Notes under the pieces: generated by a model
The model's database searches: none
What the model was told of the DNA's origin: nothing
What the model saw: the letters and a program-made list of their open reading frames with translations, nothing else
Source: Paenibacillaceae bacterium UBA6304
GTDB lineage: Bacteria; Bacillota; Bacilli; Paenibacillales; Paenibacillaceae
Direction: 5' to 3'
Assembly: GCA_002439285.1 (NCBI GenBank)
Contig: DJTQ01000073.1
Location: forward strand, 1 to 10,030
DNA: 10,030 nt
Translations under genes and position numbers: made by a program
In this document: one piece after another, positions 4,844 through 10,030 of the stretch
How positions within the stretch are numbered: position 1 is the first letter of the stretch
Layout: each line of letters opens with the position of its first letter

Positions 4844-6919
4844 ATGTTCAAGAGGTTATTCGGCGTCTTACAGAGAGTCGGTAAAGCGCTAATGTTACCT
4901 GTGGCACTGCTGCCTGCAGCCGGTCTGCTTCTTGGGATCGGGAATATGCTGGTTAGCCCCGAGTTCCTTGATCTCGTGCCGGTTCTGGATAACCAAACAG
5001 TGCACGCTATCGCGACTGTAATGATGAATGCAGGGCAAATCGTCTTTACGAACTTGGCTTTGCTATTTGCAGTCGGCGTAGCGGTCGGCTTAGCCGGAGG
5101 CGAGGGCGTAGCAGGTCTGGCTGCGATTATCGGTTACCTCGTCATGAATGTGACGATGGGTTCGGTGCTCGGCGTCGTTCCGTCCATGATCGGTACGGAT
5201 CCCGCGTATGCAAACGTACTGGGGATTCCAACGTTGGCAACCGGTGTGTTCGGCGGGATTATCGTCGGTATATTAGCGGCTAGTATGTACAACCGTTTTT
5301 TCAAAATCGAGTTGCCGTCTTATTTAGGTTTCTTTGCAGGTAAACGATTTGTTCCGATTATGACAGCTGCAACTTCGGTTATTCTCGGTTTGCTGATGGT
5401 GGTGATCTGGCCGCCGATACAGACCGGCCTTAATTCGGTTTCCCACTTTATGCTGGAGCAGAATCGGACGTTGTCCGCATTCATCTTCGGGACCGTGGAG
5501 CGGGCGCTGATACCATTCGGTCTCCATCATATTTTCTATTCACCGTTCTGGTTCGAATTCGGAGAGTATGTAAACAGTGCAGGACAACTGGTTCGTGGCG
5601 ATCAGCAGATTTTTATGGCCCAACTACGCGATGGCGAACCGTTTACTGCAGGTACGTTTATGACAGGAAAATTCCCGTTCATGATGTTCGGTCTGCCGGC
5701 TGCGGCACTTGCTATCTATCACGAGGCCAAGCCCCAGCATAAAAAGTATGTGGCGGGTATTATGGGTTCTGCGGCATTGACTTCGTTTTTGACGGGGATC
5801 ACGGAACCGCTTGAATTCTCGTTCCTGTTCGTGGCACCAGTACTTTTTGCCGTACACTGTGTGTTTGCGGGTTTATCCTTTATGACCATGCAAATTCTCC
5901 AGGTCAAAATCGGGATGACATTTTCCGGCGGATTGATCGACTATCTGATCTTTGGGGTTATTCCGGGACGCACCCCATGGTGGTATGTAATCATCGTCGG
6001 TTTAATTCTCGCCGTAATTTACTACTTCGGCTTCCGGTTTGTAATCCGAAAATTTAATTTGAAAACGCCAGGGCGTGACGACGCAGCGACGGATGATGAG
6101 AATGACTCCAATCCAGGGAAAAGCGTAACACAGGATGAGCTTCCCCATAATATATTGACCGCACTTGGCGGCGGGGCGAACATCGCTCATCTGGATGCCT
6201 GCATTACCCGTTTGCGGGTGGAAGTCAAGGACAAAGGCAACGTCGATAAAGACCGCCTTAAGAAGCTTGGCGCTTCCGGCGTATTGGAAGTAGGTAACAA
6301 CATCCAGGCTATTTTCGGGACTCGTTCGGATACGATCAAATCCCAGATTGCGGACATCATGAGCGGCAAGACGCCGAAGATTGAAGCAAAGCCGGATGCA
6401 CCTGCCGTGGAACAAAAACCAGCCGTTGTAGAGCAGGAAGCTGCTAAGGACGGAGATGCGATCATTCAGGAGGATATCGTGATGCCGGTAAACGGCGAGC
6501 TTATGGATATCACCCAAGTTCCTGACCCCGTATTTTCCGAAAAAATGACCGGTGACGGTTTTGCGGTTCTGCCTCATGATGGAACGATTTGTTCTCCGGT
6601 TTATGGTAAAGTATTCAACGTATTCCCGAGTAAGCATGCCGTGGGGATCATGTCCGACGGCGGCAAAGAAGTGCTCGTGCATATCGGAGTAAACACGGTC
6701 AAACTGAAGGGCCAAGGATTTAATGTCCTTGTCAATGAAGGAGATTTGGTCTCTGCAGGGCAACCGATTATGGAAGTAGACCTTGAATATGTGAAAGAGC
6801 ATGCTCCTTCCATCATTTCGCCGATTATTTTCTCCAATCTTCCGGAAGGCTCGGCTGTAACGTTGAACAAATCCGGTAAGCTGAAAAAGGGCGAAGAGGA
6901 TATTATAACGATCCGCTAG
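4844..6919 (+). CDS. ptsG: PTS glucose-specific permease EIICBA
   Basis: This 691-residue inner-membrane transporter imports glucose and phosphorylates it to glucose 6-phosphate. The domain order is EIIC (about 1-403, multiple membrane segments, with the PTS signature GITEP at 318-322), EIIB (about 431-510) and EIIA (about 543-690). The EIIB phospho-cysteine is Cys453 (LDACITRLRVEV). In EIIA the phospho-histidine is His613 (VLVHIGVNTVKLKG), with its partner His598 (SKHAV). Two hydrophilic linkers join the domains: about 404-430, rich in Asp and Asn, and about 512-542, rich in Ala, Pro, Glu and Lys. The ATG at 4844 is chosen because AGGAGG (4832-4837) lies 6 bases upstream; an ATG at 4838 abuts that site too closely. 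The length is near the 699 residues of B. subtilis PtsG, and no essential residue is missing. Glucose specificity is inferred from GlcT, the RAT and the three-domain fusion. Confidence 0.95.
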   Translation: MFKRLFGVLQRVGKALMLPVALLPAAGLLLGIGNMLVSPEFLDLVPVLDNQTVHAIATVMMNAGQIVFTNLALLFAVGVAVGLAGGEGVAGLAAIIGYLVMNVTMGSVLGVVPSMIGTDPAYANVLGIPTLATGVFGGIIVGILAASMYNRFFKIELPSYLGFFAGKRFVPIMTAATSVILGLLMVVIWPPIQTGLNSVSHFMLEQNRTLSAFIFGTVERALIPFGLHHIFYSPFWFEFGEYVNSAGQLVRGDQQIFMAQLRDGEPFTAGTFMTGKFPFMMFGLPAAALAIYHEAKPQHKKYVAGIMGSAALTSFLTGITEPLEFSFLFVAPVLFAVHCVFAGLSFMTMQILQVKIGMTFSGGLIDYLIFGVIPGRTPWWYVIIVGLILAVIYYFGFRFVIRKFNLKTPGRDDAATDDENDSNPGKSVTQDELPHNILTALGGGANIAHLDACITRLRVEVKDKGNVDKDRLKKLGASGVLEVGNNIQAIFGTRSDTIKSQIADIMSGKTPKIEAKPDAPAVEQKPAVVEQEAAKDGDAIIQEDIVMPVNGELMDITQVPDPVFSEKMTGDGFAVLPHDGTICSPVYGKVFNVFPSKHAVGIMSDGGKEVLVHIGVNTVKLKGQGFNVLVNEGDLVSAGQPIMEVDLEYVKEHAPSIISPIIFSNLPEGSAVTLNKSGKLKKGEEDIITIR

Positions 6920-6939
6920 AACTGGGATAGAGACAGATA

Positions 6940-6969
6940 TTGGATTTGGTTATGACAATCCCTTAAAAT
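6940..6969 (+). promoter_or_regulatory. Weak candidate promoter ahead of ptsH
   Basis: TTGGAT (6940-6945) and TAAAAT (6964-6969) are 18 bases apart in the 91-base gap between ptsG and ptsH. A separate promoter for ptsHI is known in B. subtilis, which makes it plausible. The -35 matches only three positions. No terminator lies between ptsG and ptsH, so read-through from the ptsG promoter should also occur. Confidence 0.35.
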
Positions 6970-7010
6970 AAAAGGGAGAATTCCTAATAAGAAAGTGAGA
7001 TGTATTTAAA

Positions 7011-7286
7011 ATGGAGAAAAATTTCAGAATTACAGATGAAGACGGTATCCATGCACGTCCGGCAACAGCTTTGGTCAATACCGCTAATAAATTTAAAGAT
7101 GCTGAAGCCTTTGCAGAGGCAAACGGTAAAAAAGTAACACTTAAATCGATTTTGGGCGTTCTTTCCCTCGGTTTGGAAAAAGGGGATGCGATCAAACTGA
7201 TCGTAGAAGGCGATAGTGCGGCGGATGCTATTCAAGCGCTCACGGATGTGATGATTAACGAAGGGTTAGGCGAAGTGAATGCTTAA
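7011..7286 (+). CDS. ptsH: Phosphocarrier protein HPr
   Basis: This 91-residue cytoplasmic protein carries phosphate from enzyme I to the sugar permeases. The phospho-histidine is His14 in [10 protein letters not shown]. The regulatory serine is Ser46 in [15 protein letters not shown]; in Gram-positive bacteria HPr kinase phosphorylates it so that HPr can act with CcpA in carbon catabolite repression. HPr proteins usually number the histidine as 15. Here the N-terminus is one residue shorter and one residue is added between the two sites, so the serine remains 46. The ribosome binding site is weak (AAGTGAG, 6993-6999, 11 bases from ATG), which is odd for a protein normally made in large amounts. 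The gene overlaps ptsI by 8 bases. Confidence 0.96.
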
Positions 7287-8991
7287 CATCACCGGCATTG
7301 CCGCATCGGCCGGGGTTGCAATAGCCCCCGCTTTTAAACTGGAGCATCCCGATTATACGGTGAAGAATAAGAATGCTGCCGACCCGGCTGCCGAATTGGC
7401 CCGCTTGGAGGAAGCTTTGGCAACCTCCCAGCAGGAGCTTGAAGCCATCAAAGAGCGCACGCTTCAGGAGCTAGGGGAGAAGAAAGCGGAAATCTTCGAA
7501 TCTCATCTGTTGATTTTGAACGATCCGGAGCTATTAACTCCGGTTCGCGATAAAATCTCGAGTGAGAATGCAACGGCTGAATATGCGTTGGATGAAACGT
7601 CCAAGCAGTTTATCAGCATGTTCGAGAATATGAAGAGCGCGTACCTTCAGGAGCGCGCCGCGGATATGCGGGATGTTACCAAACGGGTGCTGACGCACCT
7701 GCTTGGTCTCACCTACGTGAATCCCGCGGAGATTAGTCAGGAAGTCATCGTCATCGCCGAAGATTTGACCCCTTCCGATACGGCGCAACTAAACCGGAAA
7801 TACGTAAAGGGATTTACGACGAATATCGGGGGCAGAACCTCCCATTCGGCCATCATGGCGCGTTCTCTTGAAATTCCGGCGGTTGTGGGTACGAAGAATG
7901 TGTTATCCCAAGTGAATTCGGGTGACATGGTCATCGTCGACGGACTGGACGGAACGGTTATCGTTAATCCTTCGGCGGAAGTGATTGAGGAATATAAGAG
8001 CAAACGCGACAACCATCTTCGCCAAATCGAAGAATGGAAGAAACTCCGTGAGGTTCCTACCGTCTCGAAAGATGGCGTTCACGTCGAGTTGGCGGCCAAT
8101 ATCGGCACGCCGAACGATGTTACCGGCGTTCTGGAGAACGGTGGTGAGGGCGTAGGATTGTACCGTACGGAATTCCTCTATATGGGCCGGACGGAGCTGC
8201 CTTCGGAAGAGGTCCAGTTTAACGCTTATAAGACAGTCCTGGAAAAGATGGAGGGTAAGCCTGTTGTCGTCAGAACGCTCGATATCGGCGGTGACAAGGA
8301 GCTTCCGTATCTGGATCTGCCGAAGGAAATGAACCCTTTTCTCGGGTTCCGTGCCGTACGGCTTTGTCTGGACCGGACGGATATATTCCGGACCCAGCTT
8401 CGTGCGCTGCTGCGGGCAAGTACCTACGGGAACCTGCGAATTATGTTCCCGATGATCGCTACCTTGGATGAATTCCGCCAAGCTAAGGCGCTTTTGCTTG
8501 AAGAGCAGGAGAAACTGGCTGCGGAGGGCATCGCCGTATCCGACTCCATCCAGCTCGGTATCATGGTAGAAATTCCATCGACGGCCGTCCTTGCGGACCA
8601 ATTCGCCAAGGAAGTCGATTTCTTTAGCATCGGAACCAATGATCTCATTCAATATACGATGGCGGCCGACCGGATGAACGAACGCGTCTCTTATTTGTAT
8701 CAACCATATAACCCGGCGATTCTTCGTCTGGTAAAAATGGTGATCGATGCTGCACACAAAGAAGGCCGTTGGGCCGGAATGTGCGGAGAAATGGCAGGAG
8801 ACACCACGGCGATTCCGTTGCTTCTGGGTCTTGGCCTCGATGAATTCAGTATGAGCGCGACCTCCATTCTTCCGGCTCGTTCGCAAATCTCCAAGCTCTC
8901 CAAAGCGGAGATGAAGGAGCTCGCGGAACAGGCACTGCAAATGCAGACAGCGGAACAAGTCGTACAGCTTGTCCGGGGAATCGGACAATAA
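7279..8991 (+). CDS. ptsI: Phosphoenolpyruvate-protein phosphotransferase (PTS enzyme I)
   Basis: This 570-residue cytoplasmic enzyme, the standard length, catalyses the first step of the phosphotransferase system: phosphate moves from phosphoenolpyruvate to its own histidine and then to HPr. The N-terminal HPr-binding and phosphohistidine domains contain the active His189 in [25 protein letters not shown] sequence. The C-terminal PEP-binding barrel contains [13 protein letters not shown], the [14 protein letters not shown] signature, and the catalytic Cys502 in GMCGEMAGD. The ATG lies within the last codons of ptsH (8-base overlap, ATGcTTAA), so translation is probably coupled to ptsH. All catalytic motifs are intact. 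It serves every PTS permease in the cell, not only PtsG. Confidence 0.97.
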
Positions 8992-9083: not shown

Positions 9084-9109
9084 CCGGTGCCTTTGGGCAC
9101 CGGTTTTTT
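9084..9109 (+). terminator. Rho-independent terminator of the ptsGHI operon
   Basis: CCGGTGCC (9084-9091) pairs perfectly with GGCACCGG (9096-9103) around a TTTG loop, followed by six T residues (9104-9109). It lies 92 bases after the ptsI stop and is the strongest terminator in the window by GC content. Confidence 0.95.
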
Positions 9110-9128
9110 AGTTATTGCCTGGTTATAA

Positions 9129-9252
9129 GCTGCCTGTGCTGTATGCGCTGAATGCGTTGTCTGCTCTGTTTGCATTATCTACGTTGTCTCGGCTGTCTAC
9201 GCTGTCCTATTTGCGCATTATCTGTGCTGTCAATGCTGTATGCGTTGTTTGC
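9129..9252. repeat. Degenerate 9-base tandem repeat, about 13-14 units
   Basis: Consecutive 9-base units resemble GYTGTMTGC, for example GCTGTATGC (9138-9146), GCTGAATGC (9147-9155), GTTGTCTGC (9156-9164), GCTGTCTAC (9192-9200), and again GCTGTATGC and GTTGTTTGC (9235-9252). The register holds except for one short unit near 9210-9216. It begins about 20 bases after the ptsI operon terminator. I see no gene here; the 9-base period keeps a reading frame open by chance. The copies are diverged, suggesting an old or fast-changing array. Confidence 0.8.
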
Positions 9253-9275
9253 GAAATGAACCAGTAGCTTCATAT

Positions 9276-9462
9276 TCTTACGGACATGAGAGACGTTAAA
9301 CCTCTCGAAAACGAGGGTTTAATATTCTAACGGACACCAGAGCCCTTAATCGTACGAAACTTCGATGAAAAGAGCATATTTAGCGCGAATAAAGGCTCCT
9401 GTGTCCGTTAGATTTCTTGGGAGGCCAATAATAGCTAGTTAAGGTCTCCTATGTCCGTTAGA
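9276..9462. repeat. Nested inverted repeat of four motif copies at 50-base pitch
   Basis: A motif of about 23 bases, beginning TCTAACGGACA and ending GAG-N3-TTA, occurs four times. Two copies lie on the + strand (9276-9298 and 9326-9348) and two on the - strand (9390-9412 and 9440-9462). Within each pair the copies are exactly 50 bases apart. The inner copies match at 19 of 22 positions (9327-9348 against 9390-9411) and the outer copies at 19 of 23, so the whole stretch can fold as a nested palindrome. Between the first two copies lies a separate hairpin with arms AAACC/CTCG and CGAG/GGTTT around AAAA (9298-9320). No transposase is present. It could be a non-autonomous mobile element, a REP-like intergenic element or a structured RNA; I cannot choose among these. 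Confidence 0.8.
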
Positions 9463-9524
9463 GTTTCCACCCGTGCCCCAATTTCCACAACGACTCATCA
9501 CCCCCCTCACAACACTCTACTCAG

Positions 9525-9588
9525 CACCCACGTTACTCACCACCCACGATATTCACCACCCACGATATTCACCATTCACATTATTCAC
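9525..9588. repeat. 16-base tandem repeat, four units
   Basis: Four adjoining 16-base units lie at 9525-9540, 9541-9556, 9557-9572 and 9573-9588. The second and third are identical (CACCCACGATATTCAC), and the first and fourth differ at a few positions. The flanks from about 9480 to 9660 are also strongly biased to C, A and T on this strand, with repeated CACC and TACTCACC, suggesting decayed further copies. Open frames through here are His-, Thr- and Pro-rich products of the repeat and do not look like genes. Confidence 0.85.
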
Positions 9589-9959
9589 CACACACCATCA
9601 TATCCTCGACATTGCTCGCCATTCCTCATTACTAACCCCTCCTTACTCACCACCAATATCGCATTTCGCCGGACAAGCCTTGTTACAAACTAGTTCATCC
9701 CTTATCCGCCACCTGGTTAAAGGATTGGTCGAATATTCTTCTGAGCTCTAATTGCCAACGGTTCATTAGAAGATTATGCTTTATCGAAAACTTAAGGTAG
9801 GCATCTGTTGGGTCCTAATCTTTATTGTTTCTCTCCTCGGTCTCTTCTCAATTAAGAGCGCCTAAGGCTATGAGCTCCTTTTTATTCCACTGCCGTTAAG
9901 GAATGGTCCAAATTGGGTAAGATAGTTACATGGCGTAAATATCAGGAGGTTGATGCATA
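9589..9959. other. Non-coding stretch before the last gene
   Basis: Apart from C/A/T-rich decayed repeat sequence up to about 9660, I see no gene, RNA or convincing promoter here. A GAGC/GCTC pairing near 9857-9876 with a following T run is too short to call a terminator. The promoter for the gene at 9960 is probably somewhere in this stretch but has no clear match to consensus. Confidence 0.5.
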
Positions 9960-10030
9960 ATGGCAAATAACCAGCATACTCAACAATTGGATGCTTCACG
10001 GAGAGAGGACTTTACCCGGGCGTCGCTGCG
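9960..10030 (+). CDS. Start of an unidentified gene, truncated by the window end
   Basis: An ATG at 9960 is preceded by a strong AGGAGG (9944-9949) at 10-base spacing, and the frame stays open to the window edge (23 full codons). The visible N-terminus, MANNQHTQQLDASRREDFTR, is hydrophilic with no signal peptide. An ATG at 9952 in another frame closes after five codons and is not a better choice. I do not recognise the product and assign no function. It begins a new transcription unit, separated from ptsI by a terminator and the repeat island. Confidence 0.75.
   Translation, partial: MANNQHTQQLDASRREDFTRASL

Follow-up and report, generated by a model that had tools for sequence, protein, structure and literature searches.

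The window analyzed here, the whole 10,030-nt stretch of contig DJTQ01000073.1 from Paenibacillaceae bacterium UBA6304 (hereafter, the host), is 10 kb of a Paenibacillaceae chromosome; of the matches found to the host genome, that to Fontibacillus phaseoli is the closest, with DNA 83% identical at the ptsI end. It encodes an iron-type alcohol dehydrogenase, a flotillin-like protein, an antiterminator, the glucose transporter of the phosphotransferase system, HPr, and enzyme I. The stop codon of enzyme I is at 8991; 3' of it lie a terminator-like hairpin recognized by eye (9084-9109) and then the subject of this analysis, a 187-bp non-coding element (9276-9462), which is one copy of a dispersed family. 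The following gene begins near 9961 and is cut off by the end of the window; its product may be ribosomal protein L25, and 23 residues of it had no match in Pfam. Rfam produced two sub-threshold matches in the window, neither of them at 9276-9462, and no Rfam family reached the element.

The element consists of four motifs of about 25 bp, with the core TAACGGACA, in the order +,+,-,-. The cores are 50 bp apart within each pair and 74 bp apart across the center. The parts of the window copy are as follows.

9276..9462, no strand: whole 187-bp element, four motifs in the 0/50/137/187 frame
9276..9300, + strand: motif 1 (outer left), core with one change (TTACGGACA)
9301..9325, no strand: filler 1, A/T triplets at 9308-9310 and 9318-9320, A/T phase across copies
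9326..9350, + strand: motif 2 (inner left)
9351..9387, no strand: central filler, 37 bp, A/T phase across copies
9388..9412, - strand: motif 3 (inner right)
9413..9437, no strand: filler 3, 25 bp, A/T phase across copies
9438..9462, - strand: motif 4 (outer right)

A preliminary description of this DNA placed two plus-strand motifs with starts at 9276 and 9326 opposite two minus-strand motifs with ends at 9412 and 9462, at a 50-base pitch; these places are correct to the base and the pitch is present in both pairs. The compact hairpin that it reported in the first unit does exist, at about 9302-9316, but is not a feature of the family because the filler letters vary between copies. The motif consensus derived from 35 Fontibacillus elements is NYTAACGGACAYVRSRGMCSTTAW, with a nearly invariant left half and a right half that is degenerate within fixed base classes. 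About 22 bp of the motif form an imperfect dyad of 6+9+6 bases, TAACGG-N9-[CA]C[GC]TTA, and the TAA steps of the four motifs are centered at element positions 3, 53, 133 and 183, that is, 50, 80 and 50 bp apart. Reading the motif as a CsrA or sigma site was considered and dropped. On either side of the element, the window contains tandem repeats, imperfect 9-bp ones to the left (9125-9261) and 16-bp ones to the right (9513-9592).

The motif recurs in the host genome and in its relatives far above control levels. Searching the host with the single motif (at most two mismatches) yielded 39 matches on 21 contigs, versus 9 for the reversed control; among the 16 of 21 places that were examined, the 0/50/137/187 frame holds in 13, two depart from it, and one is partial. 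Two cores at the 50-bp pitch matched 43 times in the host genome and not once in the control, and this pattern was present in 25 of the 40 genus genomes (1467 matches in total versus 18 for the control). When a pattern comprising the six-base core and the center was used, 28 of the 40 genus genomes matched, 25 with at least seven matches and three with one or two. Some genomes that are empty under the two-core pattern carry another core class (G001, 0 and then 19 matches). When the scan was widened to the order, one match or more was obtained in 144 of 296 genomes. Many of these stay at control level, and others, from several families, have tens to hundreds; the genomes named among the matches listed belong to Paenibacillus, Fontibacillus and Cohnella. 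The impression recorded earlier, that such repeats occur between genes in Paenibacillus, is thus borne out by the genome scans and by the placement of the elements relative to open reading frames (ORFs; see below).

The geometry of the element is fixed. In the 16 host loci, which were fetched by the single motif regardless of spacing, same-strand cores (at most two mismatches) are 50 bp apart in 32 cases, 49 bp in one, 51 bp in two, and at other distances between 40 and 60 bp in nine. With the correct center gap, the numbers of matches in G000, F. phaseoli CECT 8333 (G017), Paenibacillus oralis KCOM 3021 (G015) and P. macerans MER 50.2 (G013) are 50, 61, 408 and 329, respectively, versus 2, 2, 7 and 33 when the gap is extended by one base. 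The core is also coherent within elements of one genome, G003, where GGAC occupies all four sites in 12 elements and GGAA all four in eight; none of the 20 fetched elements (L329-L348) mixes the two, whereas 20,000 shuffles give at least nine mixed elements. These classes fit one type of protein per element and related proteins per genome. GGTT cores are present in G012, G013, G015 and G036.

Several variants of the layout were encountered. In G042 and G051, which belong to a different family of the order, the motif appears closer to a palindrome (e.g., TAACGGACATCGGTGACCGTTA), and neighboring pairs lie on the same strand, 111 bp apart, instead of being inverted. In Paenibacillus sp. MAHUQ-63, elements occur in tandem groups of two or three, at intervals of about 225-281 bp (L187 at 6610-7350, L209, and L163). 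The left flank of a P. antibioticophila GD11 (G002) locus (L364, C1:78866-79666) contains an extra degenerate motif, located some 48-50 bp beyond motif 1 and hinting that the number of sites may exceed four in some arrays.

The filler between the motifs, described at first as variable, does vary in its letters between copies but is not free, because A/T is held at a fixed 10-bp helical phase. A/T is favored at element positions 32-34, 42-44, 82-84, 92-94, 102-104, 142-144 and 152-154, and its fraction by position modulo 10 spans 0.93 to 0.38 in Fontibacillus and 0.88 to 0.34 in a set drawn mainly from outside that genus, with a period peak at 10.1 bp. All 80 non-redundant copies (filler identity under 60%) fall within 1.5 bp of a common A/T phase, with a coherence of 0.97, whereas the coherence in the four flanking stretches is only 0.05-0.24; no search pattern included the filler. 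The window copy has an A/T amplitude of 0.110 and a phase of 3.48, compared to the family mean of 2.94. The A/T profiles of 27 Fontibacillus copies and of 53 copies from other species, with Fontibacillus relatives removed, correlate at 0.89, and in G003, which was fetched later, the period is 10.2 bp across 20 copies with a mean filler identity of 35%. Such a phase suggests that the double-stranded DNA is curved or can be wrapped, with the four TAA steps predicted to lie on one face; because A/T steps recur in the filler with a 10.1-bp period, the full 187 bp should be curved or readily wrapped. To our knowledge, phase-constrained filler has no parallel. As a separate observation, the filler of one arm in G003 and G015 contains ATTTCCCGG-N-ATTTCCC direct repeats 10 bp apart, and ATTTCCCGGG in this filler may be similar to one half of the Bacillus subtilis Noc site.

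Comparison of the host with F. phaseoli allowed us to follow the element at fixed sites in this one species pair. For 10 pairs of orthologous loci identified by their flanking genes, 126 of 999 motif sites have changed (12.6%), compared to 281 of 860 filler sites (33%), and A/T was lost at 15 of 187 phase sites versus 99 of 333 sites elsewhere in the filler. The elements contain 22 gap columns in 12 openings, whereas the equally long flanks contain 419 in 113 openings on the left and 389 in 103 on the right. The spacing is exact in nine of the 10 F. phaseoli partners. In the window pair, which was found by position, 8 of 100 motif sites and 26 of 85 filler sites have changed. The low level of motif change and the scarcity of gaps at orthologous sites support the original proposal that the motif is under selection or is the target of some mechanism. 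A DNA search of the 40 genus genomes found the element beside ptsI in F. phaseoli only. A motif-free screen for the geometry at 29 ptsI loci detected nothing above shuffles, which proves little because the F. phaseoli copy itself, with its spacing shifted by 1 bp, was also missed. At another locus, F. phaseoli has two elements 537 bp apart (C3:397583 and C3:398120; L124 and L126) where the host locus (L005) shows one.

The element lies outside genes. Among 137 copies in named loci, many of them from two species, three overlap a mechanically called ORF of at least 100 amino acids. For the 108 elements with both neighboring ORFs in view, 31 gaps are convergent, 64 same-direction and 13 divergent, compared to 19, 57 and 26 of 102 comparison gaps, respectively, a mild bias toward gene ends (convergent versus divergent, p 0.01). 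Among the flanking proteins, of which 90 of the 152 collected were scanned, the only recurring families are common ones, with Response_reg the most frequent (4 of 90), and the regulon reading was rejected because no recurrent gene family appeared among the scanned proteins.

Evidence of mobility comes from one lineage. P. oralis (contig C1) harbors a recent subfamily with near-identical filler at 99 places (fetched loci L041-L070 and L279-L318). Its copies are on the + strand up to 1.722 Mb and from 5.640 Mb, and on the - strand from 1.898 to 5.210 Mb, with a single exception at 1.932 Mb; dnaA is at 1.852 Mb, and the G-C skew, calculated from 67 fetched loci, flips sign at the same two borders. 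Thus, 98 of the 99 copies are polarized with replication. Both neighbors are in view for 56 of the 61 copies examined, and in 49 of these the gene to the right is directed toward the element; given that six of the other seven still obey the replication rule, neighboring genes do not fully explain the polarity. The unit is followed by an A-run in 48 of the 61 copies, and next to the A-run, a hairpin below -12 kcal/mol is found in 42 of these 48 versus 121 of 445 random A-run-anchored controls (at a laxer threshold of -8 kcal/mol, 47 of the 61 copies pass, but so do 236 of the 445 random pieces), indicating that many copies adjoin a host terminator. The related genome G012, 89% identical in the vicinity of one of these sites, has a terminator with a single A-run there but no element, as read by eye because the program alignment was poor; also by eye, the longer P. 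oralis unit is bordered by an A-run on either side. No target duplication was found for the 187-bp element itself. The copied unit exceeds 187 bp in both P. oralis and P. antibioticophila, with flanks that differ between the two. The search for an ORF-bearing parent in P. oralis found none: all 40 right-end copies scored, out of 80 candidates, adjoin the 187-bp element. A unit of the P. oralis kind also sits in an IMG/VR contig, filed as viral. In P. antibioticophila, one arm type switches strand repeatedly along contig C1 (six + and three -), and with these unpolarized copies replication polarity is not supported as a rule for the whole family.

Searches of the open-licence literature in PubMed Central gave no description of the element among the papers listed. 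It was compared to known systems that it resembles in part. Like repetitive extragenic palindromic (REP) sequences and the bacterial interspersed mosaic elements (BIMEs) and REPINs built from REP doublets, it is short, present in high copy number and located between genes, with inverted pairs and a less conserved spacer; REP doublets in Pseudomonas fluorescens SBW25 have common spacings of 71 and 110 bp (PMC3116915). REPs are, however, linked to REP-associated tyrosine transposases (RAYTs) and tagged with GTAG or CGTC, each REP is a hairpin, and doublets fold in single strands. The present element differs in having four sites, an exact 50/74/50 core spacing and helically phased filler, its consensus in the 35 Fontibacillus elements contains no GTAG or CGTC tag, and its fold, although stable, shows no covariation of the kind expected of hairpin arms kept by selection (see below). 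Miniature inverted-repeat transposable elements (MITEs), such as Bcr1, RUP and NEMIS (PMC3733652, the consulted parts of which do not mention Paenibacillus), are likewise short, dispersed and devoid of ORFs, with inverted ends and near-identical copies in some genomes, and the element is indeed a dispersed, non-coding, multicopy sequence with inverted ends. As differences from MITEs, no terminal inverted repeat with a target duplication was detected, the element is conserved at fixed sites, and no related autonomous transposon was detected in P. oralis, where it was sought by the right end only.

With respect to probable action, the layout would suit four dimers on bent DNA, as in DNA wrapped by LrpC/AsnC octamers or RemA rings (PMC8481266). 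According to that source, RemA sites are poorly conserved repeats upstream of promoters, in contrast to the sharp motifs of the element and its avoidance of promoter gaps. The genome-wide A-tract periodicity of bacteria also involves helix-phased A/T runs and is linked to curvature and nucleoid compaction (PMC3940949), but as presented there it is a diffuse statistical signal, whereas the element has one fixed phase that is tied to four motifs and absent from the flanks. By analogy, then, the habit of the element resembles that of REPs/REPINs and MITEs, and its likely action that of LrpC- or RemA-wrapped DNA. The 50-bp pitch seems wide for an LrpC octamer. We file the element as a variant of interspersed palindromic repeats in which the tested defining features of REPs and REPINs fail.

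Which mechanism could account for all these features? The preliminary description proposed three candidates, namely, a structured transcript, a non-autonomous mobile element and a protein-binding array, and considered a local duplication as well. The last possibility, like a chance pattern, is practically eliminated by a dispersed family of fixed geometry in the host and its relatives. A structured RNA or hairpin, in which the outer and inner arm pairs base-pair in a transcript or a single strand, would agree with the very stable fold of 9272-9465 (z -8.8, with none of 200 shuffles equally stable), but any array with the +,+,-,- order would fold stably. Across 35 elements, some of them orthologous, agreement between facing arms at their variable positions is no higher than for shuffled pairs (outer z -0.68, inner z -1.63; between -1.63 and +1.42 for the six arm pairings). 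This lack of covariation makes it unlikely that a long hairpin has been selected, and the nested palindrome arises from the order of the sites. Furthermore, the 10.1-bp filler phase is a property of double-stranded DNA that would be meaningless for RNA, and there is no Rfam family at the element, so that the structured transcript is weakened to the point of being very improbable. The dyad sites, helical phasing and fixed-site conservation would also suit a looping repressor, with the element as an operator array of a global regulator that controls neighboring promoters; this, too, appears improbable given the under-use of divergent, promoter-to-promoter gaps, the lack of a recurrent family among the scanned flanking proteins and the presence of tens to hundreds of copies per genome.

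A pure miniature transposon deserves more weight, although we regard it as doubtful. It would have two transposase sites per end (left 1, left 2 / right 2, right 1), and the curved DNA would serve only to join the ends of so short an element. The inverted end-array layout fits this scheme, as do the tens of copies with near-identical filler in P. oralis and P. antibioticophila, the G012 site lacking the unit, the copy in the IMG/VR contig, the patchy distribution among genomes and the tandem copies in Paenibacillus sp. MAHUQ-63. Mobility, as proposed at the outset, is supported for the P. oralis subfamily, but mobility alone leaves unexplained why the motif, the spacing and the A/T phase persist at fixed sites even though the filler letters change. 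Moreover, the unit copied in the two species is longer than 187 bp and has different flanks, no target duplication was established, and the P. oralis right ends scored all adjoin the element rather than an ORF-bearing parent.

The protein-binding array is the candidate that best fits the dyad sites, the exact spacing, the phase and the fixed-site conservation, along with the unmixed core classes of G003, the lack of arm covariation and the bias toward gene ends. From the sequence patterns, we assign a probability of about 0.58 to the reading that the element comprises four dimer-type sites on bent DNA for a putative protein and is a mobile unit that was later held in place. Under this reading, the element would be a recognition cassette for a putative DNA-binding protein, each dyad motif having the form expected for one protein dimer, so that four dimers would bind. 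With the four sites sharing one helix face, the protein might fold the 187 bp into a single looped or wrapped particle. More speculatively, this particle could serve as a landmark with a structural or insulating role, in many cases at the 3' ends of genes, acting perhaps as a barrier to supercoils or read-through, or in nucleoid organization. The element would have originated as a mobile unit that may still be spreading in some lineages and has probably been kept by the host in Fontibacillus.

Several points weigh against the protein-bound array. The partner is putative, and wrapping and curvature are predictions from the base phase. Twelve of the 40 genus genomes have no match to the pattern of six-base core and center, so the element is not a basic need of the group, and the near-identical filler in P. 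oralis and P. antibioticophila is what a mobile element would show. The one F. phaseoli partner with inexact spacing (49 and 51 bp) is that of the window, the only pair found by position alone. The motif itself led to the host loci and to most F. phaseoli loci, and seven of the 10 partners were found by the exact pitch in one arm as well, a sampling that favors conserved motifs and spacing, and a doubtful pair (L027/L116, 61% identity) stays in the counts. The A/T phase is less affected by this bias, as is the scarcity of gaps elsewhere in the element.

A bolder extension, which we advance tentatively, is that these repeats might represent a new class of element set by geometry rather than by letters: a 187-bp, nucleosome-like positioning cassette wrapped into a single particle by four dimers of a dedicated protein that exists in several specificity classes (GGAC, GGAA and GGTT). 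Such cassettes could have spread through the Paenibacillales, in one lineage fork-polarized beside terminators, and then been kept by the hosts as chromosome landmarks. If so, many Paenibacillales chromosomes would have tens to hundreds of protein-DNA particles of the same geometry built into them, together with a built-in record of DNA bending, because between the sites only the helical phase would be constrained. The family would then offer a countable natural system for studying how bent, protein-bound DNA is positioned in bacteria and how a mobile repeat turns into a chromosome landmark, and the polarized subfamily of P. oralis would make a link between insertion and the replication fork directly testable.
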